A stretch of DNA of 64,000 nucleotides from Prostheceraeus crozeri (lineage: Eukaryota > Platyhelminthes > Polycladida > Euryleptidae): positions 620,001 through 684,000 of the forward strand of contig CAJQUW010008753.1 of NCBI GenBank assembly GCA_907163375.1. Reading direction: 5' to 3'. Position numbers and translations under genes: made by a program. Positions within the stretch are counted from its first letter, which is position 1. The number at the start of each line of letters is the position of its first letter. A model generated the notes under the pieces. The model was not told where the DNA came from. It was given only the letters and a program-made list of their open reading frames with translations, and made no database searches. Shown here in pieces: positions 26,707 through 64,000 of this stretch.

Positions 26707-27135
26707 ATGAGCAACATAAATGAGTTTTTGAAATTATATGGAACACAAACAACAACGAATTTCCATTTAAAGAAAATCGCAAATCAATTGGGAATAAAGA
26801 ATTTTCACATATTGATGAGAGACGAATTACAATTCCTAAAAAATAAGCCAACAAAAACTATAAATTTCATAACAAATCTTCATACGTCAGACCAAAAAGG
26901 AGTACATTGGTCAGCAGGTACGTCTACTAAAAATGGAGATAATTACTATTTTGACTCTTATGGATTGCCTCCAACAAACGAAGTCAAAAAATTACTTGGC
27001 AATGGAACTTATAATACATTTCAAATTCAAAAACCGGGAACTACTTATTGTGGCCAATTATGTCTTTATGTTTTATTTAAATTACAAAAAGGAGTACCAT
27101 TTCTAGATATTATGTTAGAATTCAACAAACCGTAG
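26707..27135 (+). CDS. Adenain-like cysteine protease (Maverick PRO)
   Basis: 142 aa. The catalytic set of the adenovirus-protease/Ulp1 family is visible in order: His in KGVHWSAG (about residue 64), an acidic residue in YYFDSYGLPP (about 82), Gln in QIQKPG, and Cys in TTYCGQLCLYVLF (about 123). In adenoviruses and Mavericks this enzyme matures capsid and core proteins in the virion. Length is shorter than adenain (about 200 aa) but normal for Maverick PRO, although the last residues may be missing because the palindrome begins two bases after the stop. Frame is intact. No other capsid gene is nearby, so this copy is orphaned. Confidence 0.8.
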   Translation: MSNINEFLKLYGTQTTTNFHLKKIANQLGIKNFHILMRDELQFLKNKPTKTINFITNLHTSDQKGVHWSAGTSTKNGDNYYFDSYGLPPTNEVKKLLGNGTYNTFQIQKPGTTYCGQLCLYVLFKLQKGVPFLDIMLEFNKP

Positions 27136-27137
27136 GT

Positions 27138-29651
27138 TCAGGAAGTAAGCATTCCTATCGCTCATCAGTCGTGCCGGAACCATCATTAGAGGTGCGATTA
27201 TTTCCTTAATGCATACGGTATCTCTATTTTCATACCTTGTTATGTTGTATACGTTGCAAAAAATGAGAGAATGCGTCCTTACTATTTCCTGAAGCCTTTG
27301 CATCCATTCCTGCTCATTTTGCGCATATGAAGCTTCTTGTAGACTTAATGAAATACCCGACAGTACAGGTTTCAACAAATACATAGTGACCCTGTCACCA
27401 GTAATTTCAATAATTTTCCCTACATCACCATCCCTTCGCAATACATACGAGTTGACAGTCTTCCTCTTTTGGTCATCTTCCCAAGTATTGTATAACATTC
27501 CTGCTTCCTCTGAGTTGATTGAAATAGTTGCCAACGCCGCTTGGATATTAGCGGAATTCAGAGAAATCAGAAACGCATTCAGCTGTCGAGAGATCATGAA
27601 TTTTGAGACTAGTTGCCAACCATAACCTCGAGTTCCCTTTAGTAGTCGCTGGAATTTTCCTATGGCACTTTCGAAACCAAACATTGAAACATTAGAAATT
27701 GGTCCGAATTCTCGATAAGAGTCCAAAAATGTTAAAGCATGTGAAAATTTAGTCGCATATTTCTAGCTCCGAATAAATTAGGTAACTTATCGAGCACAAT
27801 GTTAATAAGATAGTCAATCGACAATAAAGATGAAGAGTGATGAAATAGTAAGTTATATAGGACACTCAGAGAGATAATAAATAATTTCAGCTCGGTTCCT
27901 GACGCACCACACGCAAGAATCGGAATGGCCATATGCATGAAAAAATTCCTGAAGTGCTTGGCCTTCCACGAATTAAGCTTTGATAGAGGAATAAGGATAC
28001 TGTACCCCTTCGGACCCTTGCTACGTGTTATTGTCTCATCAATCCATTGTGTTGCTCCTTGTGATAAATGACAAGACTCATTCCGCAAACCGCTAATCAT
28101 TCTCAACAATATCTGTTTCACCTGACCCTCAAATAAGCAGTGCATAGGGTCTATTATATAAGCATCGGGAAAAGAAATCACGTCTGAAATAGATGCCTTC
28201 TTCTTAACACCAAAAATGATTTGACCACTTGATCGGGTAAACTCTGCATGCTCAAGGTAATTTTCACTAGTTCGATGAGGAACCACTCCATCTGGCTGAG
28301 TCGGAAAACAACGGACATGACCTCTCTGTGAAATATGAACAGTCTCTCCAGGATGGAGACATTTGGGGCATGAGAATGCACCGTTGAATTGTCTTAAACC
28401 ACATATGTTTGCCATTGCCGGGAGATCTGCTGTAAAGAATGAAAAATGCAAACGAACTTGATAATCACCGAAGTTCATGGATTTCGGTAATGCTTGAAAT
28501 AATAATGGAATTACATGATCAAAATCAGGCCTTTTCTCAGATTCCACTAAACATAGAAGCATGGTGTTGGAGAATTTCTGCCGCTCAGTTGGGGCTAAGT
28601 TTAGTAACTGTGCTTGAATTGGCCAAAACGACACGCTAGTAGATTTAAAGAAACTTGCACCATCGGCGCACACCAAGAAATGAAGATGAACGACATAATC
28701 TCCATATCTCATTAGATTTTTCCTCACGGCATAATTGCTGCACAGAACATCACACCCAGGGAATCGCCTCAAAATGCACTCATACTCGGTGACCTTGGAA
28801 AACTTAGTCGATAATAGTTGAGACAACTGATGTGTTAGAGAGGGAACGAACACTTTATTACGATTATTATGGGTATCATTTAAACATTCACTCTTGCCAC
28901 AAGCACTACATGTGAAGAAGATATGGATTTCCTCAGCTTCACTGAAAAACAGACGTGTAAGAGACATCATACGCTTCACCGAGGATGGCCAATTATTATT
29001 GGGATGTATTATCGTCAGTAATTTGAGAAATCGATCAAGCGCTGCTTCTGAAACTCCAGCATCTATGCACCAAATGTGAATCAAAGCAGATTTGATATGG
29101 ATGCTTTCTATATTATGAAAAGTTGTCAGAACATGGAATGAAGCTTCAGAATCTTCATCTTCATTCTCCCAATGATTACGGTTATTTTCAGACAACCCAG
29201 AAGTACCTACATTAGACATTAGTCGGTCATAATCAGTGTCATCATCAGCTACCTGAGATAGTTTAGAACCAGCTTCTTCAGAATAAGGCTCTGACGGTGC
29301 ATCACTTATTTCTTCACTTATGTAAATATCAAAGCATTCGGATGAGTGATCAGGGAATTGAAATATATTGAAATTATCCAAACCAGGTTCGTCACCATTG
29401 GATAATCGATTTATATCACGCGTTTCATAGTCTGCAATGCTACTATCGAAACCGTCAAATGAATGGCTACCTATTTCAAAATCAGTGAAACTTTTCTCAC
29501 TTACAGATGAATAGTTTGATGACAAATATTGTTCTTCTCTATCTTCAAATGAAGAAAAGCAATCGGCTTCGATATCTTCACCATCTGAATTTGAAATTTC
29601 TGAGAATTTGTAGCTGTGATCGGACACAGTTTCATCGAAGTTGTCATTCAT
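27138..29651 (-). pseudogene. CACTA-2 transposase, left palindrome copy
   Basis: Acidic N-terminus from the Met at 29651, then SALIHIWCIDAGVSEAALDR, a Cys pair (CSACGKSEC), FTADLPAMANICGLRQFNG with CPKC and HPGETVHISQRGH, DPMHCLFEGQ, and, one base out of frame, LDSYREFGPISNVSMFGFES. The order is that of EnSpm-type transposases. The frame break at about 27727-27732 is shared with the right copy, so it predates the palindrome or reflects an unrecognised splice. Downstream this copy reads further without a break (VGKIIEITGDRV) than the right copy, but loses its last few codons at the palindrome edge. Confidence 0.75.
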
Positions 29652-36013: not shown

Positions 36014-36017
36014 TCAA

Positions 36018-42778: not shown

Positions 42779-42904
42779 GTATGGGATTACATGTATTGTT
42801 CGATTTGGCCGCCATCAGCTTGTTGAAGTGTGAGATTGCATGTATTGTTGTTCGATTTGGCCGCCATCAGCTTGTTGAAGTGTGGGATTGCATGTATTGT
42901 TCGA
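42779..42904. repeat. 62-bp tandem repeat (right arm copy)
   Basis: Mirror of 30350-30475; GGCCGCCATCAGCTTGTTGA occurs twice 62 bp apart with a third partial unit. Confidence 0.8.
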
Positions 42905-43178
42905 GTTTATTGTCCTATTTCTCACTATTTGCTTCGTGTGAGGCCTGAATCAAATTTGCTACAGAAATGTTCAGACGTTTGCTAAGGGGCTGATAAACCT
43001 GTGTTTAATATCCATGTCTAGGAAATAGTCCCTTATTTTGTTGTGTATAACGTACCGTTTACTTGAAGAAAGGTGGTTATAAAACAAACAAGAACTTCAC
43101 GTACCTTTCATATAACTTGCTATATTTCATCCTTTGCATTTCATAATGTACGTACATGTGTGTTTCGTAAGGCGATGC

Positions 43179-43557
43179 ACATGAGCCAATCCACGTGGTC
43201 TGTCACGTTCCTAAATTGTTCAAAGTCTTATACTAGGCGTGCTCAAAGCATTCTAGCATTCAATACAAACAGATATAATTATCATGAATGAGCCAGGTGT
43301 TAGGATACCTTAAAAAATGTAGTTGTGATTTTATTTCTGCCATACCTACATGTATTTCTCAGGACTCATTTAAAAAGCGGTCAGTCACGTTCTACTGTGG
43401 GGAGTTGGTGAGTACAGAAGACCTAACTACCTTTTTAAGGTACCTTAACACCTGGCTCATTCATGAAATATAAAAGTTCGATGGTTTGAGTGCGCTTGGC
43501 ATAAGACTTTGCACGATTTTGGAACGTGACTGATCGCGCAGATTGACCCACATGCAA
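43179..43557. repeat. Foldback/MITE-like inverted repeat (right arm copy)
   Basis: Mirror of 29697-30075. It lies immediately upstream of the transposase exon, so it could affect its promoter or splicing; no direct evidence. Confidence 0.65.
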
Positions 43558-43602
43558 CACATGGCTAAACTAATTATTCTTTCAAAAATGATTTTATTTC
43601 AG

Positions 43603-46144
43603 ATGAATGACAACTTCGATGAAACTGTGTCCGATCACAGCTACAAATTCTCAGAAATTTCAAATTCAGATGGTGAAGATATCGAAGCCGATTGCTTTTC
43701 TTCATTTGAAGATAGAGAAGAACAATATTTGTCATCAAACTATTCATCTGTAAGTGAGAAAAGTTTCACTGATTTTGAAATAGGTAGCCATTCATTTGAC
43801 GGTTTCGATAGTAGCATTGCAGACTATGAAACGCGTGATATAGATCGATTATCCAATGGTGATGAACCTGGTTTGGATAATTTCAATATATTTCAATTCC
43901 CTGATCACTCATCCGAATGCTTTGATATTTCCATAAGTGAAGAAATAAGTGATGTACCGTCAGAGCCTTATTCTGAAGAAGCTGGTTCTAAACTATCTCA
44001 GGTAGCTGATGATGACACTGATTATGACCGACTAATGTCTATTGTAGGTACTTCTGGGTTGTCTGAAAATAACCGTAATCATTGGGAGAATGAAGATGAA
44101 GATTCTGAAGCTTCATTCCATGTTCTGACAACTTTTCATAATATAGAAAGCATCCATATCAAATCTGCTTTGATTCACATTTGGTGCATTGATGCTGGAG
44201 TTTCAGAAGCAGCGCTTGATCGATTTCTCAAATTACTGACGATAATACATCCCAATAATAATTGGCCATCCTCGGTGAAGCGTATGATGTCTCTTACACG
44301 TCTGTTTTTCAGTGAAGCTGAGGAAATCCATATCTTCTTCACATGTAGTGCTTGTGGCAAGAGTGAATGTTTAAATGATACCCATAATAATCGTAATAAA
44401 GTGTTCGTTCCCTCTCTAACACATCAGTTGTCTCAACTATTATCGACTAAGTTTTCCAAGGTCACCGAGTATGAGTGCATTTTGAGGCGATTCCCTGGGT
44501 GTGATGTTCTGTGCAGCAATTATGCCGTGAGGAAAAATCTAATGAGATATGGAGATTATGTCGTTCATCTTCATTTCTTGGTGTGCGCCGATGGTGCAAG
44601 TTTCTTTAAATCTACTAGCGTGTCGTTTTGGCCAATTCAAGCACAGTTACTAAACTTAGCCCCAACTGAGCGGCAGAAATTCTCCAACACCATGCTTCTA
44701 TGCTTAGTGGAATCTGAGAAAAAGCCTGATTTTGATCATGTAATTTCATTATTATTTCAAGCATTACCGAAATCCATGAACTTCGGTGATTATCAAGTTC
44801 GTTTGCATTTTTCATTCTTTACAGCAGATCTCCCGGCAATGGCAAACATATGTGGTTTAAGACAATTCAACGGTGCATTCTCATGCCCCAAATGTCTCCA
44901 TCCTGGAGAGACTGTTCATATTTCACAGAGAGGTCATGTCCGTTGTTTTCCGACTCAGCCAGATGGAGTGGTTCCTCATCGAACTAGTGAAAATTACCTT
45001 GAGCATGCAGAGTTTACCCGATCAAGTGGTCAAATCATTTTTGGTGTTAAGAAGAAGGCATCTATTTCAGACGTGATTTCTTTTCCCGATGCTTATATAA
45101 TAGACCCTATGCACTGCTTATTTGAGGGTCAGGTGAAACAGATATTGTTGAGAATGATTAGCGGTTTGCGGAATGAGTCTTTTCATTTATCACAAGGAGC
45201 AACACAATGGATTGATGAGACAATAACACGTAGCAAGGGTCCGAAGGGGTACAGTATCCCTATGCCTCTATCAAAGCTTAATTCGTGGAAGGCCAAGCAC
45301 TTCAGGAATTTTTTCATGCATATGGCCATTCCGATTCTTGCGTGTGGTGCGTCAGGAACCGAGCTGAAATTATTTATTATCTCTCTGAGTGTCCTATATA
45401 ACTTACTATTTCATCACTCTTCATCTTTATTGTCGATTGACTATCTTATTAACATTGTGCTCGATAAGTTACCTAATTTATTCGGAGCTAGAAATATGCG
45501 ACTAAATTTTCACATGCTTTAACATTTTTGGACTCTTATCGAGAATTCGGACCAATTTCTAATGTTTAAATGTTTGGTTTCGAAAGTGCCATAGGAAAAT
45601 TCCAGCGACTACTAAAGGGAACTCGAGGTTATGGTTGGCAACTAGTCTCAAAATTCATGATCTGTCGACAGCTGAATGCGTTTCTGATTTCTCTGAATTC
45701 CGCTAATGTCCAAGCGGCGTTGGCAACTATTTCAATCAACTCAGAGGAAACAGGAATGTTATATAATACTTGGGAAGATGACCAAAAGAGGAAGACTGTC
45801 AACTCGTATGTATTGCGAAGGGATGGTGAGGTAGGGAATTTATTGAAATTACTGGTGACAGGGTCACTATGTATTTGTTGAAACCTGTACTGTCGGGTAT
45901 TTCATTAAGTCTACAAGAAGCTTCATATGCGCAAAATGAGCAGGAATGGATGCAAAGGCTTCAGGAAATAGTAAGGACGCATTCTCTCATTTTTTGCAAC
46001 GTATACAACATAACAAGGTATGAAAATAGAGATACCGTATGCATTAAGGAAATAATCGCACCTCTAATGATGGTTCCGGCACGACTGATGAGCGATAGGA
46101 ATGCTTACTTCCTGATTCCTATCTATGATTATATGCACGACTGA
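43603..46144 (+). pseudogene. CACTA/EnSpm transposase of CACTA-2 (right copy)
   Basis: The coding exon begins at the Met at 43603 just after a TTTATTTCAG acceptor. Residues 1-190 are Ser/Asp/Glu-rich; then SALIHIWCIDAGVSEAALDR, a Cys motif (TCSACGKSEC), LRRFPGCDVLCSN, FTADLPAMANICGLRQFNG with CPKCLHPGE, HISQRGH, a long middle region with DPMHCLFEG, a helical hydrophobic stretch and, after a one-base frame change at 45516-45570, a GFESAIGKFQRLLKGTRGY block. A second break occurs near 45838 (the left copy stays open there). The true C-terminus (FLIPIYDYMHD) is present at 46144. About eight residues differ from the left copy in 659. It should mobilise ends such as 36018 and 50684. Broken unless the first break is spliced. 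Confidence 0.75.
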
Positions 46145-49473: not shown

Positions 49474-50684
49474 AAGTGTTGAGTTCTAAGAAAGGATTTT
49501 GGCATCAGATGAATGGAAATCTACAAGAAGACAATGGTAGGAATAAACAACACGTAGAACAATGTAGAACACTGAAGAATAGAAAGAAGTATATAACAAC
49601 AAAAGTAATCCAGAGAGTGACCTGAACAATCCAATCGACAATTCTGACTTCTTTGATATTTGACGTTCCAACATGTTAAAATTTAAAGTCAAGAAAATCT
49701 GTAATGTTATGAGACCTGAGCAAAAGGTATATTTTTAATTATCAGGCTATATATTAGTCTAAAATTAAACACTATCCACTCGGAACAACTACTTTTTTCT
49801 TATTTCTGTCTGCGTAAAAGTTGTTAGCAAATATAGTCTGTAAAGATCAGTTTAGAGGCAATGACATATTATGTGTGAATGGTTTATAATGGTCTGTACC
49901 GGAAACAGGCTGCATTCCACGTATTCTGGAAATATATTATCATTAAATCATTATTCTTATGAATTATATATAAAATGATTTCATAAAATTTTAATTCAAA
50001 GTGGAAAATTCTCCAATGTGCTCTAGGCTAGTGAATTTTGGTGCGTTGAATTCGTTGAATTAAATTTTCCATTTTCATTTATTCCTCTTCATTATCGCAG
50101 ATCAAATCAGGCCTAAGCATGTTTTTGCAAGTGTATTTCGTTTTCATATCTGAAATTTCATACGTGTGATGTAGCTAACATTTCAGTTTTTCAAGATAGA
50201 TTTATTTGTATACAATAATTTGTAGAAAGATTTATCTGTTTTCTGATGATTTTCGTTTTCAATGTTTATCCACGTTAACATGGATCATGGATGTTTTTCT
50301 TGTCAACACATGTCGTTACATTTGTTCTACAAAAATTGTAGAAAATACGAGTTAAGGTTAGTACTGAAAGCATCAATAATTGATACATCTATTTTGAATA
50401 AATTGAAGATTAAAATGATCACACAATATAAGTTTCTGTTATCAATGATTAACCATACGATCATGCATCATGGATGTTTTTCTTGCATTACTCGTCGTTA
50501 AATATGTTTTTTACAAAAATGGTAGAATATGAAAGCTCTGATTAACATTGAAAGCACAAATGATAGGCGTATCTATTTCGAGTAATTCGCGTTGAAAATT
50601 ATCACACAATATATATTTTAATTTACCATGATCAACCACGTGATCATGCATCATGCAATATTATCCAATCTCGGGAAACCAGGG
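49474..50684 (-). repeat. Right 1.2-kb terminal repeat of CACTA-2
   Basis: Inverted copy of 36018-37228. The outer end ...TCTCGGGAAACCAGGG stops inside the transposase exon of another element. Confidence 0.85.
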
Positions 50685-51740: not shown

Positions 51741-52330
51741 CGTTCCAGGACACCATAAAATTCAAAAAAATAGTATCTTTAAAAACGACATAAATTCATG
51801 AATTTAGACCCTTTTTCAGGTTTTTAAGACCTAAATACATGAATTTAGTCCATTCAAAAAGTACCATTTTTTCAAAAAATGGCATTTTTAAAAACGACAT
51901 AAATTCATGAATTTAGACCCTTTTTCAGGTTATGAAGACCTAAATTCACAAATTTGGGCGTTTTTAAAAATACCCAATTTTTCAAATTTTTCAAAATCTC
52001 AAACTTTGAGAATTACAATTTTCACCCTTAAAATCATGACCGTTCCAGGACACCGAAAAATCATAAAAGTTGAGAATCTCAAATTTGTGATTATGATCAT
52101 TTTCTTGCTCAAATCATGACCGTTCCAGGACACCGAAAAATCATAAAAGTTGAGAATCTCAAATTTGTGATTATGATCATTTTCTTGCTCAAATCATGAC
52201 CGTTCCAGGACACCGAAAAAATCAGAAAAGTTAAGAATCTCAAATTTGAGAATTACAATTTTTACCTTGAAAATCATGACCGTTCCAGGACACCGAAAAT
52301 CATAAAAGTTGAGAATTTCAAATTCATGAA
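51741..52330 (+). repeat. Maverick terminal repeat zone, 77-81-bp units
   Basis: GACCGTTCCAGGACACC occurs near 51740, 52039, 52120, 52201 and 52278. The last four are 77-81 bp apart, each followed by GAAAAATCA(T/G)AAAAGTT and by AATCTCAAATTTG. Between 51760 and 51990 a different pair of units (CATAAATTCATGAATTTAG...) repeats. The mirror zone is at 3340-3660. No terminal hairpin is present here, so the terminus may be truncated. Confidence 0.8.
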
Positions 52331-52365
52331 TTTTATCCATCTTTTAGGTTTTTAAAATATAACAT

Positions 52366-53052
52366 GTGACTAATAATATTTCTTTAAAAATGGAAGAAAC
52401 AAAAATGGAGGAAACCGCAAGAATATATCCTTCATTATCATATGAAATGGATATTGCAAAACACAAAGATAGAGTTAGGTATATGAAAGATAAGGAATCT
52501 CAATTATTATTAAGATTAGAGCATTATAAAAAATTAAGAAAGAGATGGAGTAAAGTTAAGAATGTAACACAAGGAATTGGCATATTCTTAACAATAAGTT
52601 TAGGTGCTTTAACAATTGTTATATCTTCAGGTGTTTTAGTAATTCCAGTAGTTGCTACAGCTTTAACAGGTACGGGTGTTTTTGCAACTTCACTTGTTAC
52701 AATGTTAGATAAATCTTTAATAACTAAGAAACGAAAATCATTAAAAACTAAGCATTTACATATTAAAGAAGTCTATGATAAACTACATTACTACTTTCAA
52801 AGAGTATGTGATGATAATGTTATTACGTTAGATGAAATTGAAAAATTTGATCAAATAGCTAATGAAGTAAATCAAACCTTTCAATTACAGTCCGAAAAAG
52901 TTGATGATAAGAATAGACAGGATGGCAAAATTTCTAGTGATGGTAAAATTTCTAATGAAGAAAATGACAAAATTTTTTTAGAAGAGCTAAAAACTTTAAG
53001 CGAAAATTTAAGCAAAACTTTATTAAACAGAACTTTATTAAACAAAACTTAA
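52366..53052 (+). pseudogene. Maverick membrane protein (right copy, frameshifted)
   Basis: 228 aa, near-identical to the left copy through the two hydrophobic segments (about residues 70-115), but with two MEET units instead of three, a deletion of about 18 codons after LSYE, and loss of one A in the run at about 53043 that brings in an early TAA. The remaining reading frame continues to about 53170 as in the left copy. The truncated tail is low complexity, so the protein might still fold; I call it a pseudogene with reservation. Confidence 0.55.
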
Positions 53053-53187
53053 AACGAGAAAACTTTAACCGAGAAAACTTTAAACGAAAAGATGTCAAAC
53101 AACAAAGCAATAAAAAAATAATTTGTTCAGTAAAATGTTTTTGTTGTATTCCAATGTTACCACAAAATTCAAATATTATATTTTAAA

Positions 53188-53950
53188 AATGGATAAAATT
53201 AGAGCTGATAATTTTAAAAGAATAAAGCAATTAGAAGAGTTAATAAAACAAAGAAATATTATGAAAGAAAATCATCTTCAACATAGAATGATAAAAGCTG
53301 GTATTCAATCTGATATGTTTGAAAAAATGCAGCAAACCGAGCAAATAAAAACTGATTTTGAAAAAACTATGAAACCATTTAAAACTCTTGAAAAAGAACT
53401 TACAAATAATGATAAACAAATTGATATAACAGATCCAGAGCACAAAACTATATTAGATGACTATGGATTACTAGAATCAAACATTAATAAGAAATTACCA
53501 AAATCTATGCAATTTGAACATTCTATTTCATTTATAGATGGAAAAACAATACCTAGATTTTATCTCGGACAAAAAGAAATATTTCCACAACCTTTTCGAC
53601 GTTTAATTTTTTCACCAGATAAATATCCTTTTAATTTAGATAGAAATTTTGTTAATCTTTTAAGAGGAGCAGATTTAAATAATTATGCTGTAGATGATCT
53701 TATAAAATATAAAGCTATGTTAGATAGAGTTGGTGTAGTAAAATCTCTTAGACGTTATAAACAATTAGAAAATTTATTATCAACGGGAGTTAAAGTAGGG
53801 AAAGGTTTATCTGAAAAACAGAAAATAGAAACAACCATACTTTTACCAGATGATCCACAAGAACTACTAAATAGATTAAATATTCTAATATCTGCAATAA
53901 AAGAAGGACATAATTCTAGTTTCAATGAAATTCATGCTATATTGAAATGA
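53188..53950 (+). pseudogene. Maverick conserved hypothetical protein (right copy, early stop)
   Basis: Starts at MDKIRADNFKRIKQLEEL with a TTTTAAAAATG context. Same layout as the left copy (helical charged N-terminus, GKTIPRFYLGQKEIFP block). It ends at a TGA (53948-53950), where the left copy has a sense codon and goes on for about 24 residues; those residues remain encoded after the stop. Also lacks a two-codon TE repeat present on the left. Confidence 0.6.
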
Positions 53951-54076
53951 CTGCTGGAAAAGAAGATTCTAAATGAAGAGGATTATAAAAGTGTAGCTGA
54001 AATATGTTGTTGTTTTCAATTTTTTATAAAAAAAATATTTCATAAAAAAATATTTATTCAAAATTTTAACTAAAAA

Positions 54077-54865
54077 ATGTGTTCAGTAGATTTAGACAAA
54101 ATTAATAATCATTTAGAAAATCTAACAGAGATTTTGGGTTCATCAAAATTTAGTACGACGTTAAAAATTATAACAACTACTTCATCACACACTTGTAATT
54201 TAGAACCCATTCTACATTTGGAACAAAATAAAAATTATCAAATTGCATTGACTAGTTTCTCTACATTTAACACTATTCAAAACGTTATCAAAGATGTGAA
54301 TGATCAATTTAGATATTCTACTGATAAAGGCAAAACATGGAAAATATTAACTTTTCTTCCTGGTTCTTACGAAGTTGAATCAATATCAAATGAAATTAAG
54401 AGACATTTAGGTATACCATTTAAAGATAAGAAACAATTACATTTTGCAGTTGAACCGGCAGTTAATAAATTTTCTCTTACTTTAGACGAAAATCATCAAG
54501 TTGATTTTAATCATGATAGATCATTGTCAAAGCTATTAGGATTTAATAAACAAACCTATAGTCAAGGTTATCATTTCGGTGAGAAGATTCCAAAAATAGC
54601 TGAAATAAATTCAATTGTTGTACATTGTGACATTATTGAAGGAGGATATATAAATGGTAAATTATCAAATTTAATATTCAGTTTTCCAGCTTTTACTGTA
54701 CCCATTGGTTATAGATTAAATGTATTTCCCCAAACATTAATATATTTTCCTATTACAAGAAAAACTATTAACAACATTAACATTAGAATCACTGATGAAA
54801 AAGGACAAGAAATAAATTTTGGAGGTGAAGAGATTATGATAGATCTTTTGGTTCGGGAGGTATAA
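54077..54865 (+). CDS. Penton-like minor capsid protein (right copy)
   Basis: 262 aa, intact, differing from the left copy by about six residues (for example Ala/Val at position 4). Beta-rich with the ITDEKGQEINFGGEE closing block characteristic of Maverick penton-like proteins. Start context ACTAAAAAATG. The downstream sequence is shared with the left copy only as far as about 54918, then the ATPase gene begins here whereas a PolB-like fragment begins in the left element. Confidence 0.6.
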   Translation: MCSVDLDKINNHLENLTEILGSSKFSTTLKIITTTSSHTCNLEPILHLEQNKNYQIALTSFSTFNTIQNVIKDVNDQFRYSTDKGKTWKILTFLPGSYEVESISNEIKRHLGIPFKDKKQLHFAVEPAVNKFSLTLDENHQVDFNHDRSLSKLLGFNKQTYSQGYHFGEKIPKIAEINSIVVHCDIIEGGYINGKLSNLIFSFPAFTVPIGYRLNVFPQTLIYFPITRKTINNINIRITDEKGQEINFGGEEIMIDLLVREV

Positions 54866-54951
54866 ACTCCCACGCGAAGCTAGAGAAGTTTAATTTTCTT
54901 CTTCTTCTTTAAAAATAAAAATAAAATAAAAATAAATTTTTTTATTAAAAA

Positions 54952-55719
54952 ATGAGTGAACTACCCCCATTAAACAAAAAAAAACTTAAATTTAATCATC
55001 ATCCAAATTAATCTAATAAAGTTTTGTCAGTTATTTGCGGAAGATCAGGTTGTGGAAAAACGTATCTATTATTTAAAATTTTAGCGACTCCAAACTTTTT
55101 GGATGATAACAATCTTATAATTTATACAACAACAGCAGAACAACCCGTCTATCAATTTTTAAAATATGGATTTGAAAATAATCTTAAAAAAACAGCAATT
55201 GCTTCATTATTCAAAGAATATGAAAAATCTAAAGATAAAGAAGAAATAAGTTCGTGGTGTGAAGAAGCAGCAAAAAATAATCAGTTAATAGAATCTAATA
55301 AAAATAAGCATATAAAGATACAATTAATAGATGATAGTGGTAATATGCAAGATCCTAGTAAACTAGATAAAACAATGAAACATTGTGTAATTTTTGATGA
55401 TTGTGTTAATGATAGAAATCAGTCAGTTCAGAGAAATTATTTCACAAGAGGTAGACATAATAAGTGTAGTGTTTTTTATTTAACACAAAGTATGTATTCA
55501 TTAGACGGAAGTGTTATTAGAAAGAATGCAAATATATTTATACTATTTGAAATAAATGCAAGAAACTTAAGTGATTTGTTAAGAGATTTATGCGCAAGAA
55601 ATAAAGATGAATTTAAACAATCGTGTAACGATGCTTGGTCAAAAGATTATGGATTTATCACAATTAATATTGATAAAAAAATTCATGATAGAGTTATCGA
55701 ACAATTGTTCACTGACTAG
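54952..55719 (+). pseudogene. A32-type (FtsK/HerA) DNA-packaging ATPase with early stop
   Basis: MSELPPLNKKKLKF starts at an ATTAAAAAATG context, is interrupted by TAA at 55009-55011 (codon 20), then continues in the same frame to 55719. Walker A is CGRSGCGKT (residues about 29-37), Walker B is HCVIFDDC (hydrophobics followed by Asp-Asp), and a sensor-like VFYLTQS follows. These are the landmarks of the Maverick/NCLDV packaging ATPase, which loads DNA into the capsid. Everything after residue 20 is intact over 231 codons, so the stop may be recent; a TTG at 55024 could not supply the N-terminus. Followed by a pair of mini-hairpins just after the stop codon. Confidence 0.8.
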
Positions 55720-55731
55720 GCTTCTCCTCGA

Positions 55732-55756
55732 GGGGCTTCGCCCCGACTGAAAGTCG
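55732..55756. repeat. Paired triloop hairpins after the ATPase
   Basis: GGGGC-TTC-GCCCC (55732-55744) abuts CGACT-GAA-AGTCG (55744-55756). Both are perfect 5-bp stems with 3-nt loops in AT-rich DNA. They could act as a transcription end signal between convergent genes, but the same architecture occurs inside genes (see findings). Confidence 0.8.
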
Positions 55757-55862
55757 ATAGAAGATTTGTTTACTGAGTGATAAAAATATACAAATATAGT
55801 GTTACAATATTTTTTTTTATTTTATATATATATCAAATTTGTCTATCTTAGAAATTAGAAAA

Positions 55863-58800
55863 TTAGAAAGGTGAAGTAGTTATTCCATCAGGTAAAATTT
55901 TTCTATTATCATCAAATGGATCTAATGCTAATTTATGTTCTTCTTTTAAATACATTTTATGTTTCTTTGAATTAAGTCTATAATTACATGCTGTTTTTAT
56001 TTCATTATTAAATAATGCAGTTTTATAATCTTGAAATGTTATTTGATTAGCCACTGATGCCTTTGAAATTCCTTTTAATGTTTTATGTGTTTTAATATTA
56101 TTAGTTGCATCATAACAGTAACATTTAGATTTTAAAAATATAGCTTCTGTTATGAAATATTCATTTCCTTCTAGTTCATCTTTTACTTTACATAAATCAG
56201 AAGGATGAATGATATCTTTTATTTTATTAATTTCTTCATCAAGTGAAGAATAAGAATTAAACGGTATTGTTAATTCTAAGAAAACAGAATCGGTATCTGT
56301 AAAGTGTAATTTATAGTTTTTGCCATAAGCAGGTGCTAAATAATCATATATAAATCTATACATAAATAGTTTAGCTAATTCTAATATAGTGAATCCAATA
56401 AAATTAAACTTATCATGTTTTACGCTAATTCGACGTAAGTGTACAGCACATAGTTCATCACTAAATCTAGTAGTTCTTTTATATGTAGGTTTCCTTGTTA
56501 AATTTTGAAACCTATCTTTATCATAAACTATTTCAATATTTTGTCTATTACGCACATTTTCTAAAGTCTTACCATAAAATGCATTATTCATTAATTTGAA
56601 GAACACGTTTCCAAAATCATCTTTATTTCTTTTAGCTATTTTACGTTTTTCAATATTGAACTCTATATAATTTTTTAACCACCTAGATTTTTGATAAAAT
56701 AGTTTTCGATGTATTTTGGTGAGAATCATTCCATGTTCTCAATACCAATCTAGCATTCTTCCTTCAACAACATACTTTCCTTTATTACTTTGTGTTAACA
56801 TAAGTTTTTTGTTGGTCTGTATTTCTTAGGAATTATAGATTTTTGATAATCTGAAAAATCTTCTATATTGGGAATTTTGTTTTCGGGACACAAAGGAAAA
56901 TATTTTGTTTTATCTTTTATTTCATCAGGATATACTAAATCAACTTCATATATATAACCATGATTATAATTTCCATCATATGTTTTTTGATAATCTAGAA
57001 TATTACACCATTCCATCTCACCTGTTGGTAATTCTTGTATCATGCAAGAAGAATATAAGCTATTAAAATCATAATATAACAAATAGTTTTCTCTCATGAT
57101 TTCGTCAACTGCTGCTTGACTATCTTCATTTGATATAAGTCCTTCTATATTCTGATTAAACAATTTTATAAACTGATCACTTTCTTCTGGAGATAAAGGT
57201 TTCATTATTCCATAATCATCAGGATTTACTTTTTTATTGTAACACTGTACATAACGATTACCTAAAACTGATGAAACTCCACCTCTAATTCCAGATTCAA
57301 AAAATAATAATTTATCATATGTATTTTCTTTATAATGTTTAAGTTTAACGGACTTTGTCCTAGAGCCATCGGCTTGAACACCAGTATGTTTTAATCCTGC
57401 TAGCCATGTTAAACCTGGTGTAGAATAACAATAACATGGATCTATTCCGTAATATTCTAAACACATATCACGAAAGTTTTCAAAAAGATCAGCTAGTATG
57501 AATACATCTATCTGTAGATATTTCATTGTATAATCATACATTGTTCTACAATTTAACTCTCTCAAATTTTTTCAGCTTCTGCATAATCTTCGTCAGATAA
57601 TTGTGATTGTTTTAATGTTGATTTAAATTTATTTATTGGAGGAAGTTGTTTTTCTTCCATAATTTTATTCACAGAATTAAAATCAGTCTTCGACTGTGAA
57701 CCACAGGTTTTATCTCCAGTTAAAGCAGTCTTCGACTGTGAGCCGCAGGCTATATATTCATACGGAAATATGCCTTTTAAAGGTTTTAAATTATATTTAT
57801 TTAATATTTTACATTGTTCAGATTTCAAAGTTTTTCCCATAACATCTAATGAATAAGGAGTAAAAAATCTAAATGCATCTAAAATTCTAATACAACCTAA
57901 TTGCATTGAAAAATATTCTTCTTCTGTTTTACATAGTACATTTATTTGTTGGCGTTGTAATTTTTCAGATGAAAATAAATCTTTCATTACTAGATGGAAA
58001 TCATATTTAGAACCATTGTAGAAATATAGAGGAACAAAGTTATATTTAAATTTATTAGCATTAAGATTACAAGAATTATGTGCTGCACCTCTATATAATC
58101 CATTTAGATGATCATGATCTTTTACCTTATCAAGATATCTACCTCTGCCATTTTTATAATTTTTTGCAAATTCTTTTCCACAGTAATAACATTTTGTTTC
58201 ATTAATAAAATTTAATTTTTCTTTTTCTGTTAATGGCACCATTGGTATATTTGTTTCAAGCAATTGTGAAAAGCGACCTTGTAATTCTTCTACTTTCTTT
58301 GTAAACATTTCTGAACTATCTTCACCATAGTATTGATAATATTCTGATTTAAATAATTCAGGATAATTTGAATGAATGTACATTCCCCAACATAATGGTT
58401 TTTGTTCAAATAAATATTTTTCTTTACTTTGTTCAGCTGCACTTTTTTCATAATTGTCATTATCAGAATTCTCATTTTCAGAATCGGGTGAAACCCTGGA
58501 AGACATCTCCGTTGTCTCGTGATTTTGTGTCATATTAACATTATATGCTTCAAAATCACAATAAATTGTAAAGGGTACTTTATTTTTAAAATACCATTTA
58601 TTATATTCTAAATAATCATCTTTTGGAAATGTGTTTCTGACTGCTTCATTTTGTTGGCAATTCTCCAAATGTCTATTCATTTCTTCTTTAGTTCTAAAGC
58701 TCGTCATACATTGGAGACAAGGAAAATTAGCATTATCTGAAGTTTTTGTAAATATAGAAACATCTTTACACAATATAAAATGACCCTGATAATATAATAT

Positions 58801-60458
58801 ATTCGCTTGTGCTGATTGTTTTGTCTGTTCTAATTTTTCAAACTTATCTTTATATATTTCATGTGTTTCATCAATTTCTTTTGTAAGATTAAATGTATTT
58901 CGAAGAAAATTTTGATTTAATATTTGTAGCTGTTGTTCATATTCTTTATCATATTGTTCTTTATATTGCTGTAGACATTTTTTTAAACATTCATTTATTT
59001 TTTGATTGGTTTCATTTTCTTCATTATTTAATTCTTTATTGACTTCATTATTTTCTTCATTTAATTTTTGAATCGTTTCTATCTTATCTTGATATTTATG
59101 GCCATATTCTTGTACTAATATTTTTGTTTGTTGTTGATAATCTGTTTTACACTTTTGTAAACTTTCATTTAAATTTTGTAATTTTTGTTGATATTCTAAA
59201 GATAAAGATAAATAATCGGTATCATAATCATAATTATAATTACGTCCTTTATAATTATTATGATTAATCATTATTGGTGATAATGTTTTAACAATTTGAA
59301 ATTTTTCAGTACATATTATATTTTCTTGGTAAAAAATATTATGATGCATGTAATTTCCTATATCATTATATACTATTGCTGATTGACATAAATTTTTATT
59401 ATTCAAATAAAATTTTTTTGAATCTGAGTAAAGTGGAGTAATTTTACCAATAGAAACATAATTCACATTTAATTCAAAAACATTTACTTCTATTAAATTT
59501 TTATTCTTTTTATGAAACTTTATTAACCTATTATAATCATATGGAAATTCATCTAAGCCATCAAAGAGATCAAATTCATTTATGTATTCTTCTTTATTGT
59601 AATGACTTAGTCTTTCTTTGTGATATTCTGCAGGATGTAAATGTGCTATAATACTCCACAGAAAACAATAATCATCTTCATTTTTTATGTTGATTATTTG
59701 TGGTGAACTGAAAGGCAAAGGAACATAACTACCACCAGTATTATTTTAATATTTATCAATTACTATTTTCTTAGATAGTATTTTAACAAATCTCCAGCCA
59801 GATTCACGTAATTGGGCTTCAATTATACAATTTTCTGATTTAAGTATCATCGATTCAAATATGGGTTGTATATCATTTACATTATGAATTTCTTGCGAAT
59901 TTGTAAAATGTCCTTGTATTATTTCTTCAGGAATTCCATCAGGTCCATTTTTTGTATAAAGTACTTCTACATTCATATAACATTTGAAAGATTTCTTAAA
60001 TATATTATAAAAGTTTTTTAATACATTATCAAAAGTTTCATCGGTTTCATTATGTTCAACGGACTGATTAAATAAATATTTTATATCTGTTACTGGCGAA
60101 GCCATACAGCCTTCGGTTCGTTCCGCTTCATCGGTTTTTTAGTTTCATCAAATTCATCTATTTCGTTAAATTCATCAGTATCGCTAAATAAATATCTTCC
60201 ATCTGGTACATGTTCATCTTCACTATTAAAAACTTTTTTATATTCCGAATGTGAATAATCATCAAACATTTTTTTAACTTTTATATCAGTAGGCAATGTT
60301 TCTAGATAGTTTATATAATTATTTAATTTTAATATATTTCCTTCATCAACTCGATCTACATTTTGTAAATGCAATTTACTATTTAAATGAGATTGATAAC
60401 TTCTTTTTGTTTGCAACCTTTTTTTACATAAGTTACAATAAAACTTGGTATTTTCCAT
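55863..60458 (-). pseudogene. Protein-primed DNA polymerase B (Maverick PolB), broken
   Basis: One gene of about 1,530 codons. N-terminus: a C2H2 finger (CNLCKK...H....H), acidic linker, then SGWRFVKILSKKIVIDKY and NIKNEDDYCFLWSIIAHLHP, a block I know from Polinton PolB. Then a coiled-coil Gln/Glu region, a second C2H2-like finger (CLQCMTSF...H...C), Exo I (YCDFEAYN), an endonuclease VII-like Cys/His block (CYYCGKEF...DHDHLNG...CN), Exo II (YNGSKYDFH), Exo III (YLQIDVFILADLF), polymerase motif A (YYDFNSLYSS), motif B (KLMNNAFYGKTLENVR) and motif C (FTDTDSVF). Breaks: frame change at about 60100, TAA at 59746-59748, one-base shift at about 57563 and at about 56806, and a TGA near 56740. Replicates the linear genome using a terminal protein. 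Confidence 0.85.
57684..57748. repeat. Two copies of a paired mini-hairpin inside PolB
   Basis: CAGTC-TTC-GACTG at 57684-57696 overlaps CTGTG-AAC-CACAG at 57694-57706, and the pair recurs (second hairpin with a wobble) at 57726-57748. In the protein it appears as CGSQSKT twice. The reading frame is kept across both. Confidence 0.8.
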
Positions 60459-60584
60459 TTTTTTATTTTTTAAAGAAAAAATTGTGTTTTAATTTTAGAT
60501 ATGAACATTCTAATATCAAGGACTTGAGAGTTATTTTATATTATTATATATTTCACGTTCTTAAGTTATTTTATTTTCTTTATC

Positions 60585-60675
60585 ATATTAAGTTTTATCA
60601 TATTAAGTTTTATCATATTAAGTTTTATCATATTAAGTTTAATCATATGAAGTTTTATCATATAAAGTTTTATCA
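60585..60675. repeat. 15-bp tandem repeat at the 3' end of the 453-aa gene
   Basis: AAGTTTTATCATATT repeats about six times, with variants at the last units. It overlaps the stop region of the 453-aa gene and encodes its FDKTLYDKTSYD tail. Confidence 0.85.
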
Positions 60676-62000
60676 AAAGATAATTTAAATTTTTTTTCAC
60701 TAACTATCGATTCTTCATCATCATCATAAATTGATTCTTCAACATCATAAATTACACTTTTTGGTATAGGATGCCATTCCCTGATAAGATACCATTCTCT
60801 TATTGGAATATCTAACTCTAAATTACATTTTTTATCTGATAATAATATAATAGAGAAAAATATTGGTCTTTGATCTCTTTTGGAAAATTTAATAACACCA
60901 CCATAATCTGAATCACTTTTAGTTTTTATTAAAGATGATAAAATTTTAAATTGATTAGATGTAAATCCTAATTTAAATTTTGTAGACCCGACACATAGTT
61001 GTCTAACAGTATCTTCAACTATTCCATCATTATTATTTTCAATTGTAAGAAAATGAAATTTAGATAAATTTTGATTATATGTAGTATTAATATCATGTAC
61101 ATCAGTATGAGATATAAATTTTTCTTCACTTAAATTTTTATATTTACTAATATTTTTATAATCTTTCTTACCATTTACACCATTTTCAGATGTTTCAGAA
61201 TCATCATCTATATTATTATCATCATTATTATCATAAGATTCTTTAAGATCGGGCAAAGCCCTAGAACCTTCGGTTCGTTTATTATGATTATGATTATGGA
61301 CATTGTTTATTGTATAAGGTGTAGTCCACATATAAATTTTCTCTTGTTGAGCTAAGCCATTTATGTAAGATTTTAACAAATTAATATTTAAGTTTGAATA
61401 TAATCCTATATAAGTATCATCATCATATCTTTGCGGCATTTCTAATGTTTCTTGTTTATAAATTGTATCTCTATAATATACTTGACATAATAATTCTTCG
61501 TTATGTTTTTTACTCTCGATATGAATGTTATATTGATTTTGTTCATCAACAAATAATCTAATTTTTTCTTTCGAAAAAGATTTTAATTTTTTAACTAATT
61601 CTTTAATATTGATATAATTAATAATTTTATTTTCTATCCACTCAGTATTACTAATCGGTAAAACTGCTCTAATGAATCCGTAAACATTATTATGACCTAT
61701 TATAACCATATTTTCTTTATTTAATTCCACATAAGCTACATCATTATATTTACTAACAACCTCCATAAATTTAATAAATGGATCACCTGAGAAAATGCAA
61801 TAATTAGTTTCTATAGAAGGTAAACCTTTAGTCTGTTCTCTAAATATTTCGGCTTGTAATTGAAACAAAAGATTAACATCTATACATGGATTATTATTAT
61901 TATTATCAAAACATTTATTATCAAATCCAGTTGATCTCGTCGAATAAGAAGAGCAGGATGATACGGGCGAATATGATTTTTTTAAATTTGGATTTTTCAT
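60639..62000 (-). CDS. 453-aa Maverick protein, function unknown
   Basis: Intact, start context ATAAAAAAATG. Ser/Asn-rich N-terminus; a first folded region at about residues 45-200 (FQLQAEIFREQ...VAYVELNKENMVIIGHNNVYG), an Asn/Asp-rich linker at about 240-300 with a mini-hairpin insertion (KRTEGSRALPDL), and a second folded region at about 310-420 (FKLGFTSNQFKILSSLIKTK...GGVIKFSKRDQRPIFFSI). Two comparable halves each pairing a 'V..I.F/H.N' strand with hydrophobic ends loosely recall a sliding-clamp fold, but no signature is clear. It is divergent from the fibre-like gene and convergent with nothing; its 3' end faces the PolB N-terminus. A replication or virion role is possible. Confidence 0.5.
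   Translation of the reverse strand: MKNPNLKKSYSPVSSCSSYSTRSTGFDNKCFDNNNNNPCIDVNLLFQLQAEIFREQTKGLPSIETNYCIFSGDPFIKFMEVVSKYNDVAYVELNKENMVIIGHNNVYGFIRAVLPISNTEWIENKIINYINIKELVKKLKSFSKEKIRLFVDEQNQYNIHIESKKHNEELLCQVYYRDTIYKQETLEMPQRYDDDTYIGLYSNLNINLLKSYINGLAQQEKIYMWTTPYTINNVHNHNHNKRTEGSRALPDLKESYDNNDDNNIDDDSETSENGVNGKKDYKNISKYKNLSEEKFISHTDVHDINTTYNQNLSKFHFLTIENNNDGIVEDTVRQLCVGSTKFKLGFTSNQFKILSSLIKTKSDSDYGGVIKFSKRDQRPIFFSIILLSDKKCNLELDIPIREWYLIREWHPIPKSVIYDVEESIYDDDEESIVSEKKFKLSFDKTLYDKTSYD
61252..61277. repeat. Paired triloop hairpins inside the 453-aa gene
   Basis: GGGC-AAA-GCCC (61252-61262) is followed two bases later by GAACC-TTC-GGTTC (61265-61277). The pair keeps the reading frame and encodes part of the Asn/Asp-rich linker. 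Confidence 0.85.
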
Positions 62001-62076
62001 TTTTTTATTTTTATTAGAAAAAATTTTATTTTTTTTTATTTTTATTAGAAAAAAATTTATTTTTTATTGTTAAAAA

Positions 62077-62963
62077 ATGATGTTACCAAATGTTGGTGGA
62101 GGTGCATATATCCCGAATAATCGTGAATTAGAAATAGAAATAGAAAATTATATCATGAAAACTGGAGACGTTTTATCTGGTCCATTGCATCTTTCTATTC
62201 TTCCGCAACAAAATACAGAGTTGACAAATAAACAATATGTTGATACACAAATCAATGACTTAAAAGAAAATATATAAACGATGTTTTGGTTCCACTCATG
62301 AACGAATTAAAGTTGCTTAAACTTAATGACAAATCATTAAACCAAAAATTATTAAAACTTGATAAAAAGGATAGAGAGCTAGAAGCAGATATAGCAAAAC
62401 TTTTTAAAAAGATTTCAGAACAATCAAAAATTTTAATATTACTTTCTTTAAATTTAAAATCTGCAGTCATTAAAAATAAACATCAGATAAAGATGTTAAA
62501 AGAACAATTAGAAGATGAAATAGAAAAACTACCTGAAAGAATTAAAAAAAATTTAAAGCAGTTACAAACTACATTCCAAAAAAGTGTTGATGAATTGAGT
62601 TCTAAAATTACTCAACAAATGAAAAAGATGAATAGAATAATAAATGAAGTAAACTCACTTAATGAAAAAGTTGATAAAATGAAAACTCTTAAAATCAATT
62701 TAGAAAATGAATTAAAGAAAAATTTACAAGAAAACTCTAAAGAAAATAAAGAACAGTTAGATGCTGTTAAAAGACAATTAGATGTTCTTAAAGTTAAGTT
62801 AAATGCTCTTAAAACGGCGTTGAAGATTAATCAGCAGAAAATGCAAGTTAATAGAAAAGAAATTAAAGTACATCACACGCTGCTTGACGCAATAGATAAA
62901 GGGCAACAGGCAATTAATAAAGTTATCTCGAAGTTGTTGTCCATTCACAAACGTAAATCTTGA
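62077..62963 (+). pseudogene. Fibre-like protein: virus-fibre/tail-type head and long coiled coil (broken)
   Basis: First part (62077-62277, 66 aa) reads MKTGDVLSGPLHLS and LTNKQYVDTQINDLK, the 'GD..SGPL.L......TNKQYVD' pattern of phage and virus fibre/tail-fibre repeats. It stops at TAA (62275-62277); eight bases later a second frame (62286-62963, 225 aa) gives an almost unbroken coiled coil of heptad-like Leu/Ile/Lys/Glu residues. I read these as one gene split by a stop and a small shift: attachment knob or shaft element followed by a trimeric coiled-coil stalk. Start context GTTAAAAAATG. No transmembrane segment. In an adeno-like virion such a protein would project from the penton, but this is inference. 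Confidence 0.5.
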
Positions 62964-63212
62964 TCAGACCAAAGGTCCTCAGGTTACCAACCGATCGACG
63001 AAGTCTTGGGTTTCTAACCTATAGAACCTTGTCCAGAGGCTTTAGCCTATCGGACCAAAGGTCCTGAGGTTATTACCTTATCATAAACGTAAATCTTAGC
63101 GCAAATATTAAACGGACCAAAGGTCCTCAGGTTACTAACCAATAGAACTTTGTTCAGAGGCTTTAGCCGATCGTAAATATTTTTTCCCAAAAGTCAAATT
63201 TAATCCTAAAAA
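62964..63212. other. Intergenic array of repeated mini-hairpins
   Basis: GGACC-AAA-GGTCC recurs at 63052-63064 and 63114-63126 (a shorter GACC-AAA-GGTC at 62967-62977). A GGC-TTTA-GCC hairpin follows at 63037-63048 and 63159-63168. The order (hairpin, CAGGTTA.., ..CAGAGGC) makes two to three repeat units of about 80-150 bp. No gene. Confidence 0.8.
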
Positions 63213-63818
63213 ATGCCTATAATTTATAAACACAATCTTAAAATTTTTTCTTCAAATCAAAAAATTGCTCATGAACCATCTATGAAATATGTTTACCATT
63301 ATGACAGTGTAGAAACAATCGGAACACAAAAGTTCCTAGGCACCGCAGGTACCGTTCAAACAGAAGGGGGTAGTGTAAACAGCGGAGCCGGTATATTTTC
63401 TGGTATTGGAAGTATCGTTAACTTAATTAAAAATAATAAACATTTGATTACATCTGCTGCAAAAGGAGCAGCTGCTATAGGTAGTACAGCTAGTGCAATA
63501 TCAAATGCTGTTAAGTCTCAAAACGAATTAAAACAACTAGAAGCTATTCGTAAAGTTAGGAATGATTCCGAAGAACTAAAAAATTTAAAAAAACTTTCAG
63601 AGGAAACAAAAAATAAAATTGCTAACATAGCTGTTGGGGAAACCTTGAGGAGCGGAGTTCCGTCTGATAGTAAAAAGGGGAAGAAAACAAGCGTAGCCAT
63701 AGAACGTTCAATTGAACCTACGGTTCGTTCAATTGAAGAAATAAGAGGCAATGGCGTGAGCAGCAACCTTCGGTTTAACCAGCAAAGCTGTAGCGGAGCT
63801 GGTCTAGCAAAATTCTAA
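63213..63818 (+). CDS. Small virion-like protein with an amphipathic/hydrophobic centre
   Basis: 201 aa, intact. MPIIYKHNLKIF start with CCTAAAAAATG context. Residues about 60-115 are Gly/Ala/Ile-rich (GAGIFSGIGSIVNLI, then TSAAKGAAAIGSTASAIS), a pattern seen in adenoviral membrane-lytic or core proteins and in small Maverick virion proteins. It is followed by a charged helix (NELKQLEAIRK) and a Lys/Ser/Arg-rich tail containing three mini-hairpin insertions (63714-63726, 63765-63775, 63780-63790). It precedes the probable major capsid gene. The role is by analogy only. Confidence 0.5.
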   Translation: MPIIYKHNLKIFSSNQKIAHEPSMKYVYHYDSVETIGTQKFLGTAGTVQTEGGSVNSGAGIFSGIGSIVNLIKNNKHLITSAAKGAAAIGSTASAISNAVKSQNELKQLEAIRKVRNDSEELKNLKKLSEETKNKIANIAVGETLRSGVPSDSKKGKKTSVAIERSIEPTVRSIEEIRGNGVSSNLRFNQQSCSGAGLAKF

Positions 63819-63951
63819 AATTATATTTTAGTAAAATTTTTTTAGTAAAATTTTTTAGTAAAATTTTTTTTGGTAAAATTCTAAAATTATATTTTAGTAA
63901 AAATTTTTTCTGTCTGTGAGAAAAACAAAAAGTCAAATTATTTTTTAAAAA

Positions 63952-64000
63952 ATGTCTTCGCTTATCGAAAATAAATTTAGATTAGACGATCCTCCGTTCG
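63952..64000 (+). CDS. Start of a further Maverick gene (partial at edge)
   Basis: ATG at 63952 in a TTTAAAAAATG context, open to the window end (begins MSSLIENKFRLDDPPF). Too short to identify; in Mavericks a major capsid (hexon-like) gene is expected in this neighbourhood. Confidence 0.5.
   Translation, partial: MSSLIENKFRLDDPPF

Follow-up and report, generated by a model that had tools for sequence, protein, structure and literature searches.

Probable mobile double-hairpin elements in a large Maverick/adintovirus-like family of Prostheceraeus crozeri

How do short GC-rich hairpins come to be scattered through an AT-rich, virus-like element, some of them in frame within its genes? The question is raised by a 64,000-nucleotide stretch of the genome of the polyclad Prostheceraeus crozeri (assembly GCA_907163375.1, contig CAJQUW010008753.1, positions 620,001 to 684,000 of the forward strand; hereafter, the window). 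A sequence-only reading had picked out paired hairpins with 3-nt loops in the Maverick element at its right end and had considered mobile mini-elements, terminators, and packaging or replication sites as explanations. We compared this element with its sister copies across the genome (2.05 Gb in 14,165 contigs). The comparison makes it very probable that the hairpins are mobile double-hairpin elements, housed in one large Maverick/adintovirus-like family and presumably copied as a folded single strand. The typical unit is about 28 nt long and consists of C, a stem of 4 to 5 bp with a 3-nt loop, a 3- to 4-nt linker (often TAG), a second hairpin, and G.

Results

The window contains two inverted Maverick-like copies, matching at 93% between 641-3629 and 52075-54934, and the DNA between them, which by our reading resembles animal DNA, encodes THAP, P-element-like, piggyBac-like, and DUF1258 proteins. 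The right element, which reaches the window edge, has about 25% GC (23 to 33% in its 1-kb windows) and carries open reading frames (ORFs) for a packaging-ATPase-like protein, for PolB (split into several ORFs), and for proteins of 453 and 201 amino acids (aa). One piece of PolB matched the DNA_pol_B_2 profile (E = 2.5e-8), the ATPase and an adenain-like protease were recognized by eye from translations, and terminal repeats were deduced from shared ends; the putative carrier is a single, large Maverick/adintovirus-like family. The 453-aa protein had no homologue at an E value of 0.001, and in scans of viral contigs neither PolB nor the 201-aa protein had a relative.

To count hairpins, we required a stem of 4 or more bp that included 3 or more GC pairs and took expectations from dinucleotide shuffles of the region 52300-64000. 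Hairpins with 3-nt loops (triloops) numbered 11 against 0.4 expected, compared with 1 against 0.3 for loops of 4 nt, 4 against 0.5 for 5 nt, and 0 against 0.6 for 6 nt. Adjacent hairpins no more than 5 nt apart occurred nine times in 55000-64000 (mean of 0.026 and maximum of 1 in 500 shuffles) and once in 3701-51900 (0.53 expected). The two stretches between the elements had no comparable triloop excess (9 against 5.3 and 4 against 4.3); the first of them (3300-27000) had a general excess of short hairpins at other loop sizes (13 against 4.5 for loop 4 and 15 against 4.9 for loop 6), and the second had 48 triloops against 33 when 2 GC pairs sufficed. When shuffling was confined to GC-rich islands, triloops still numbered 22 against 1.96, with 2 against 1.94 for loop 4, 9 against 1.99 for loop 5, and 0 against 1.94 for loop 6; we attribute the loop-5 excess to 5-bp/3-nt hairpins that double as 4-bp/5-nt ones. 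The hairpins are therefore as real as the sequence-only reading had held, more numerous than it listed, and mostly paired, and the shuffled control it proposed gave far fewer such pairs by chance.

That reading had also described a shared architecture rather than a shared sequence. The varied stems do share one form, but GC-rich words recur as well: 18 recurrent 11-mers with at least 6 GC were found against 0.12 expected, part of them in a tandem array, and the double hairpins at 60093-60122 and 61250-61279, which lie in different ORFs, are identical at 25 of 30 positions, a level reached by none of 200 island shuffles. These two differ in the outer base pair of their first stem, T-A in one and G-C in the other. 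Loops of the GNA type were present on one strand in 10 of 27 window triloops (9.8% in shuffles), AAA being as frequent as GAA. Folding energies of 10 stretches gave modest z-scores for most; only the stretch termed site-D stood out (z = -3.66), through an AT-rich palindrome.

The sites in the window at which hairpins were compared between copies are as follows.

55731..55756, no strand assigned: double hairpin GGGGC-TTC-GCCCC / CGACT-GAA-AGTCG, just past the stop of the packaging-ATPase-like ORF
57349..57376, plus strand: 28-nt double hairpin GGAC-TTT-GTCC TAG AGCC-ATC-GGCT in PolB, duplicated target AA(C)
57684..57711, plus strand: double hairpin CAGTC-TTC-GACTG / AACC-ACA-GGTT in PolB, duplicated target AT(C)
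57726..57751, plus strand: second, separate double hairpin CAGTC-TTC-GACTG / AGCC-GCA-GGCT in PolB
58485..58521, plus strand: 37-nt double hairpin GGGT-GAA-ACCC TGGAA GACATC-TCC-GTTGTC, flanked by AT
60093..60122, plus strand: double hairpin TGGC-GAA-GCCA / AGCC-TTC-GGTT, located where two N-terminal ORFs of PolB are broken apart
61250..61277, plus strand: 28-nt double hairpin GGGC-AAA-GCCC TAG AACC-TTC-GGTT, in frame in the 453-aa ORF
62964..63172, plus strand: array of alternating hairpins between two genes, unit about 31 nt
63318..63353, plus strand: 36-nt insert GGAAC-acaaaa-GTTCC / GGCACC-GCA-GGTACC in the 201-aa ORF
63366..63383, plus strand: 18-nt insert in the 201-aa ORF that completes the mini-hairpin AGC-GGA-GCC, without counterpart in L129 and L130
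63636..63668, plus strand: insert with GGAGC-GGA-GTTCC, perfect (GGAGC-GGA-GCTCC) in L129
63706..63738, plus strand: GAACC-TAC-GGTTC hairpin with a copy of CGTTCAATTGAA on either side; L134 is 21 nt shorter here, and L129 and L130 also lack the hairpin
63757..63804, plus strand: 48-nt insert AACC-TTC-GGTT / CAGC-AAA-GCTG / AGC-GGA-GCT at the C terminus of the 201-aa ORF
51940..51970, minus strand: empty site AACGCCCAA|ATTTGTGAATTT with the junction near 51954, in what we take as the terminal repeat
27117..27139, plus strand: truncated hairpin AACC-GTA-GGTT where a protease-like fragment from this Maverick family ends

Most coordinates and pairs given in the sequence-only reading stood, with three corrections: 58485 should be 58486, 61252 should be 61251, and the pair at 57726 has CAGTC-TTC-GACTG as its first member, as described, but AGCC-GCA-GGCT (57741-57751) as its second, not another copy of CTGTG-AAC-CACAG.

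The state of each site was read in those fetched genome copies (L-numbers) that could be anchored there. PolB provided the clearest case. In the 57684 region, where L132 and L134 could not be anchored, L135 has the empty version, ATTAAAATCTCCAGTTATGTACTCA; after AAATC, L131 and L133 have 30 extra nt, L136 has a different 30 nt placed 11 nt further on, and the window has both inserts. Of the four anchored copies, L131 and L133 are thus filled and L135 and L136 lack the insert at 57684, and only L136 is filled at 57726, with L131, L133, and L135 lacking it. A tandem duplication as the source of the two neighboring pairs was ruled out, since two separate insertions are seen among the copies. The insert at 57349 is missing from L136 and present in L131 (where one stem base differs), L133, and L135. 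The same comparison revealed stems changing in step: the first stem at 58486 reads GGGC/GCCC in L135, GGGT/GCCC in L131, L133, and L136, and GGGT/ACCC in the window, a change by way of G-T with pairing kept, and the second hairpin of this insert differs in L131 and L133. Around 60093, L131 and L133 lack the double hairpin and carry a 39-nt insert nearby, and a related double hairpin is present in L136.

Outside PolB, the insert at 61250 was found in L131, L132, and L136, and L134 was empty. Both copies anchorable at 55731..55756 (L131 and L136) carry a 12-nt stretch without a double hairpin. At 63318, L131, L132, and L136 are filled and L134 and L135 lack the insert; the second stem is perfect (GGCACC/GGTGCC) in L129 and L130. 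The 48 nt at 63757 occur in L130 and in the window and are missing from L129. The array at 62964..63172 is present in five of six copies, with a different number and type of units in each of the five, and L133 has other sequence there. In L127, L129, and many other copies, the hairpin word recurs in the opposite orientation 2 to 2.8 kb away, so that the 62964 array seems to be followed downstream by another one built of the same units.

The terminal-repeat site gave the reverse picture, the window being empty and a 30-nt insert with duplicated AT being present in all nine compared copies, which had been picked for a hairpin word. This insert, C-GGAGC-GAA-GCTCC-TCT-GGCT-TTA-GCC-G, stands between two AT copies in DNA that we take as non-coding. 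For the truncated hairpin at 27117, L143 has a 29-nt, AAC-flanked insert of this kind.

Protein relatives showed the same pattern. Among 14 relatives of the 201-aa protein found by BLASTP (53 to 86% identity), some have and some lack the hairpin-encoded peptides at the same place. The C terminus exists in three states: no insert (P0078), VSSGAG (P0077), and VSSNLRFNQQSCSGAG (the window and P0076). The peptide of the 63636..63668 insert is missing from P0076, P0081, and P0082. In the PolB relatives covering 58486 and 57684-57751, the hairpin stretches are insertions that these relatives lack, except for P0003, which has a different insert at 58486. Independent ENA/JGI protein records contain the same peptides with the same presence and absence.

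The genome-wide abundance of these sequences is high. The genome contains the hairpin word GGACCAAAGGTCC 6,903 times and its reversed form 19 times, and GGAGCGAAGCTCC 6,453 times, compared with 24 for its reversed form; for one gene, a first look gave 3,349 candidate copies. Of the stretches fetched, eight were 3 kb long, 26 were 9 to 10 kb, and 20 were 0.7 kb. One Maverick family accounted for all of the first eight loci and also for all 20 of the further places chosen from the first 100 listed for GGAGCGAAGCTCC, 11 of which match gene regions of other copies and nine the window at 51.7-52.3 kb, taken as terminal repeat. The compared copies are mostly 89 to 95% identical, with the hairpins in clean insertions that have matching empty sites. 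Close copies therefore hold both clean empty and occupied versions of one site, the outcome that the sequence-only reading had proposed as the mark of mobile mini-elements, and the constant presence at the same positions that would have spoken against it was not seen.

For a systematic survey, 27 stretches (26 fetched ones and window positions 51901-64000), chosen out of very many copies for carrying one hairpin word, were compared all against all. This yielded 744 clean gaps of 15 to 90 nt, 438 of them unique with flanks; 206 had a GC content of at least 0.4, and the commonest length among these was 30 nt (31/206). We retained gaps of 18 to 60 nt that had a GC content of 0.42 or more, one or more 4-bp/3-nt hairpins, repeats of up to 6 nt, and flanks at least 90% identical, separated arrays by place alone, merged records into events, and drew one member per event at random. 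The filter left 137 records, 27 in arrays and 110 elsewhere; before merging, lengths were multiples of 3 in 99 of the 110 but in only 4 of the 27. Merging gave 24 insertion events outside arrays, a slightly low count since the insertions at 57684 and 57726 fall together. The modal length of 30 nt was found in nine events and a multiple of 3 in 22. Flanking repeats of at least 2 nt accompanied a mean of 15.4 of the 24 events, compared with 3.5 (maximum of 10 in 500 draws) when payloads were swapped among sites.

The inserted DNA is distinctive in form. Triloop hairpins occurred in 73 of 114 distinct GC-rich inserts, compared with loop-4 hairpins in 4 and loop-5 hairpins in 48, which we think are mostly the same hairpins with one pair fewer; among AT-rich inserts, 6 of 87 had a triloop. 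Distinct inserted hairpins had a GNA loop on one strand in 11 of 31 cases and a C-G closing pair in 27 of 31. Adjacent 4-bp/3-nt pairs in the 27 stretches were separated by 3 to 5 nt in 79 of 89 cases (a site being counted once per copy). Cores of the GGGC/GGAC TAG AACC/AGCC kind stand in nine flank contexts, which by our reading are six sites, and at 60205-60212 different elements occupy one site among copies. Two cores that differ by a single loop base are bordered by AT on both sides at 52017 and by TA at 60205. Since the borders of such near-identical cores change from place to place, the repeats derive from the target rather than the donor, an argument against simple microhomology template switching.

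Discussion

Inserts with empty counterparts occur at many sites of this family, with short border repeats (mostly 2 to 4 nt), a common, frame-keeping length of 30 nt, and stems and loops that vary with pairing largely kept. A 30-nt insert is best read as a 28-nt double hairpin plus about two duplicated target bases. That the inserts are gains rather than losses is suggested by the recurrence of cores at unlinked sites and by the target repeats. Movement would take place by a copying process on a folded single strand, most likely during protein-primed, strand-displacing PolB replication, which would expose single-stranded viral DNA. Capture of the folded donor strand might then follow at a break with a stagger of about 2 nt; within genes, the inserts to survive would be those that preserve the frame.

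Several observations weigh against this account. Gain is probable rather than proven, and no enzyme for hairpin movement was identified. Four of the 24 events had no 2-nt repeat in any alignment, and repeat length ranged from 0 to 5 nt and is not fixed, unlike that of most transposases; a few of the 24 are simpler GC-rich repeats rather than clear double hairpins (e.g., CGTCGCAGTGCAGCTGC...). Decayed stems were seen at 63636 and 58507, and some same-site differences resemble a swap of one hairpin and not a fresh insertion (58522 and 60209). AT-rich indels were also mostly multiples of 3 (54/87), so part of the frame bias reflects ordinary selection on coding sequence. Flanking repeats sought in the window alone gave a weak signal (P < 0.05 in 2 of 14 stretches); a clear one required empty sites.

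Among other explanations, we regard a self-templated or microhomology-guided replication error as improbable. On this view, a viral polymerase that slips, or one used by the host for repair (Pol theta, for example), would fold back its own 3' end, copy it, and re-anneal, leaving short inverted repeats without anything having moved. Pol theta can extend stem-loops from two paired bases and has been proposed as a source of inverted-repeat repair events (PMC11292364), and DNA mini-hairpins with GNA loops, the type enriched in the window, are extraordinarily stable (PMC4686876). Such an error, however, would hardly copy GC-rich inserts from the flanks of an element with so little GC; nor does it account for near-identical cores at unlinked sites, or for the length peak at 30 nt, which was also met at the one non-coding terminal-repeat site examined. 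The GNA-loop mini-hairpins themselves resemble ours in their short GC stem and 3-nt loop, but they represent a physical property and not a family.

Still less likely, in our judgment, is that the hairpins are conserved for a function, as transcript 3' ends or packaging or replication signals, and were lost from some copies. Several do lie at gene ends (55731, 62964-63172, 63757, and 27117), the array sits between two genes in most copies, and mRNAs of Mimiviridae end at hairpin-forming palindromes (PMC4402537). Others, however, lie in the middle of PolB and the 453-aa ORF and vary in presence among close copies; by our reading no sequence or strand is common to all, and a scan for known RNA families gave two matches, both far under cut-offs. 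The terminator and packaging roles raised by the sequence-only reading are not needed for inserts that are found in the terminal repeat and in intergenic DNA as well as in the middle and at the ends of genes, with GNA loops, by our reading, on either strand relative to transcription. Chance hairpins or an assembly artifact are scarcely credible: short palindromes are frequent in long sequences, and one host stretch has an excess at other loop sizes, but the shuffle controls, the counts of hairpin words against reversed words, and the same peptides in ENA/JGI records refute this idea. A miniature inverted-repeat transposable element moved by a DDE transposase does not fit either, since these inserts have two separate internal hairpins and repeats of 0 to 5 nt in place of terminal inverted repeats and a fixed target duplication.

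To our knowledge, mobile hairpin clusters are a long-standing mitochondrial puzzle without a known enzyme, and the likeness to organelle double-hairpin elements drawn by the sequence-only reading is apt. Rickettsia palindromic elements, which are bacterial and much longer, are also in-frame palindromic inserts in protein genes. The GC clusters of yeast mitochondrial DNA are GC-rich palindromes that are optional, lie in frame in var1/rps3, and occur singly or in tandem arrays; their AG/TAG terminal repeats are regarded as target duplications, and their parts have been shuffled (PMC8811140, PMC4464245). The flatworm inserts share with them the short, GC-rich, palindromic form within AT-rich DNA, the coexistence of empty and occupied alleles, and a short (2- to 3-nt) target duplication. 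They differ in being mostly 28 to 37 nt long rather than 30 to 80 bp, in consisting of two triloop hairpins, and in residing in a nuclear, integrated, virus-like element of an animal. This setting, on nuclear-type contigs among transposons, sets them apart from the yeast classes (M1, M2, and others) of the mitochondrial genome.

Double-hairpin elements (DHE) of chytrid and fission-yeast mitochondria are GC-rich, dispersed, and potentially mobile, consist of two hairpins, and in fission yeast lie mostly between genes or in rRNA genes (PMC10085805). Ours likewise have two adjacent hairpins with a short linker, but they occur next to THAP, P-element-like, and piggyBac-like genes, in Mavericks, within protein genes, and with empty sites. 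Sponge mitochondria have been invaded recurrently by hairpin repeats, occasionally in protein genes without a frameshift; these differ from ours in being mitochondrial and in having stems of 15 to 18 bp in the described types (PMC2800124). On the best reading, the hairpins would work like GC clusters or DHE without being filed as members, given that those are defined by a fungal mitochondrial setting. The sequence-only reading knew of none in Mavericks, and we found no report of such mobile hairpins in the literature searched on Mavericks, Polintons, adintoviruses, and giant viruses, a coverage that leaves out most subscription journals.

We tentatively raise a bolder possibility, one we hold to be somewhat less likely than its opposite, namely, that the element is defined by structure. 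Thousands of 28-nt double hairpins may have spread by a mechanism that recognizes the fold and the 28-nt length but not the sequence; stems would then drift as long as they stay paired, and the fixed length plus a 2-nt duplication would spare the reading frame. If mobility is confirmed, these elements are able to remodel viral proteins, about 10 to 13 codons being added at once, and the behavior of mitochondrial hairpin clusters is met again in a nuclear virus-like element with very many copies. With many empty and filled sites to compare, it becomes possible to measure how targets are chosen, how long the duplications are, and by what rule paired changes occur.

Additional observations

Scans of viral contigs with two longer hairpin patterns gave no match, and a 14-base pattern gave at least 120 stretches, about the chance level by our estimate. 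Triloop hairpins are very abundant in three of the 120 listed stretches, which come from two related phage-like genomes. The phage-like contigs L047, L073, and L106 have crowded palindromes, many with 3-nt loops, and the relatives differ by paired stem changes (TTAGAGCC-GAA-GGCTCTAA / TCAGAGCC-GAA-GGCTCTGA) and by the presence of whole hairpins; they may be an independent case. Of two genome contigs with a distant PolB, L122 had no GC-rich hairpins. The other, L121, which is binned in a bacterial metagenome-assembled genome, has them near gene ends (3378-6320), and one, ACCCGTCT-TGG-AGACGGGT at 5668-5686, lies in frame in an ORF.

Within the window, the left element diverges from the right one over 1-640, before the ATPase, so that gene content or order differs between the copies there. 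The protease-like fragment at 26150-27137 (recognized by eye), a mid-window piece of the same Maverick family, ends near 27138 at the start of a large inverted-repeat set (27138-46115), which is mostly 99 to 100% matched and contains two 656-aa ORFs resembling DUF1258/Transposase_21. An additional 1.2-kb copy from this set lies at 49474-50684. Near the start of the right element, at 52031-52350, an 80-bp tandem repeat is present in about four copies with a GC-rich core.

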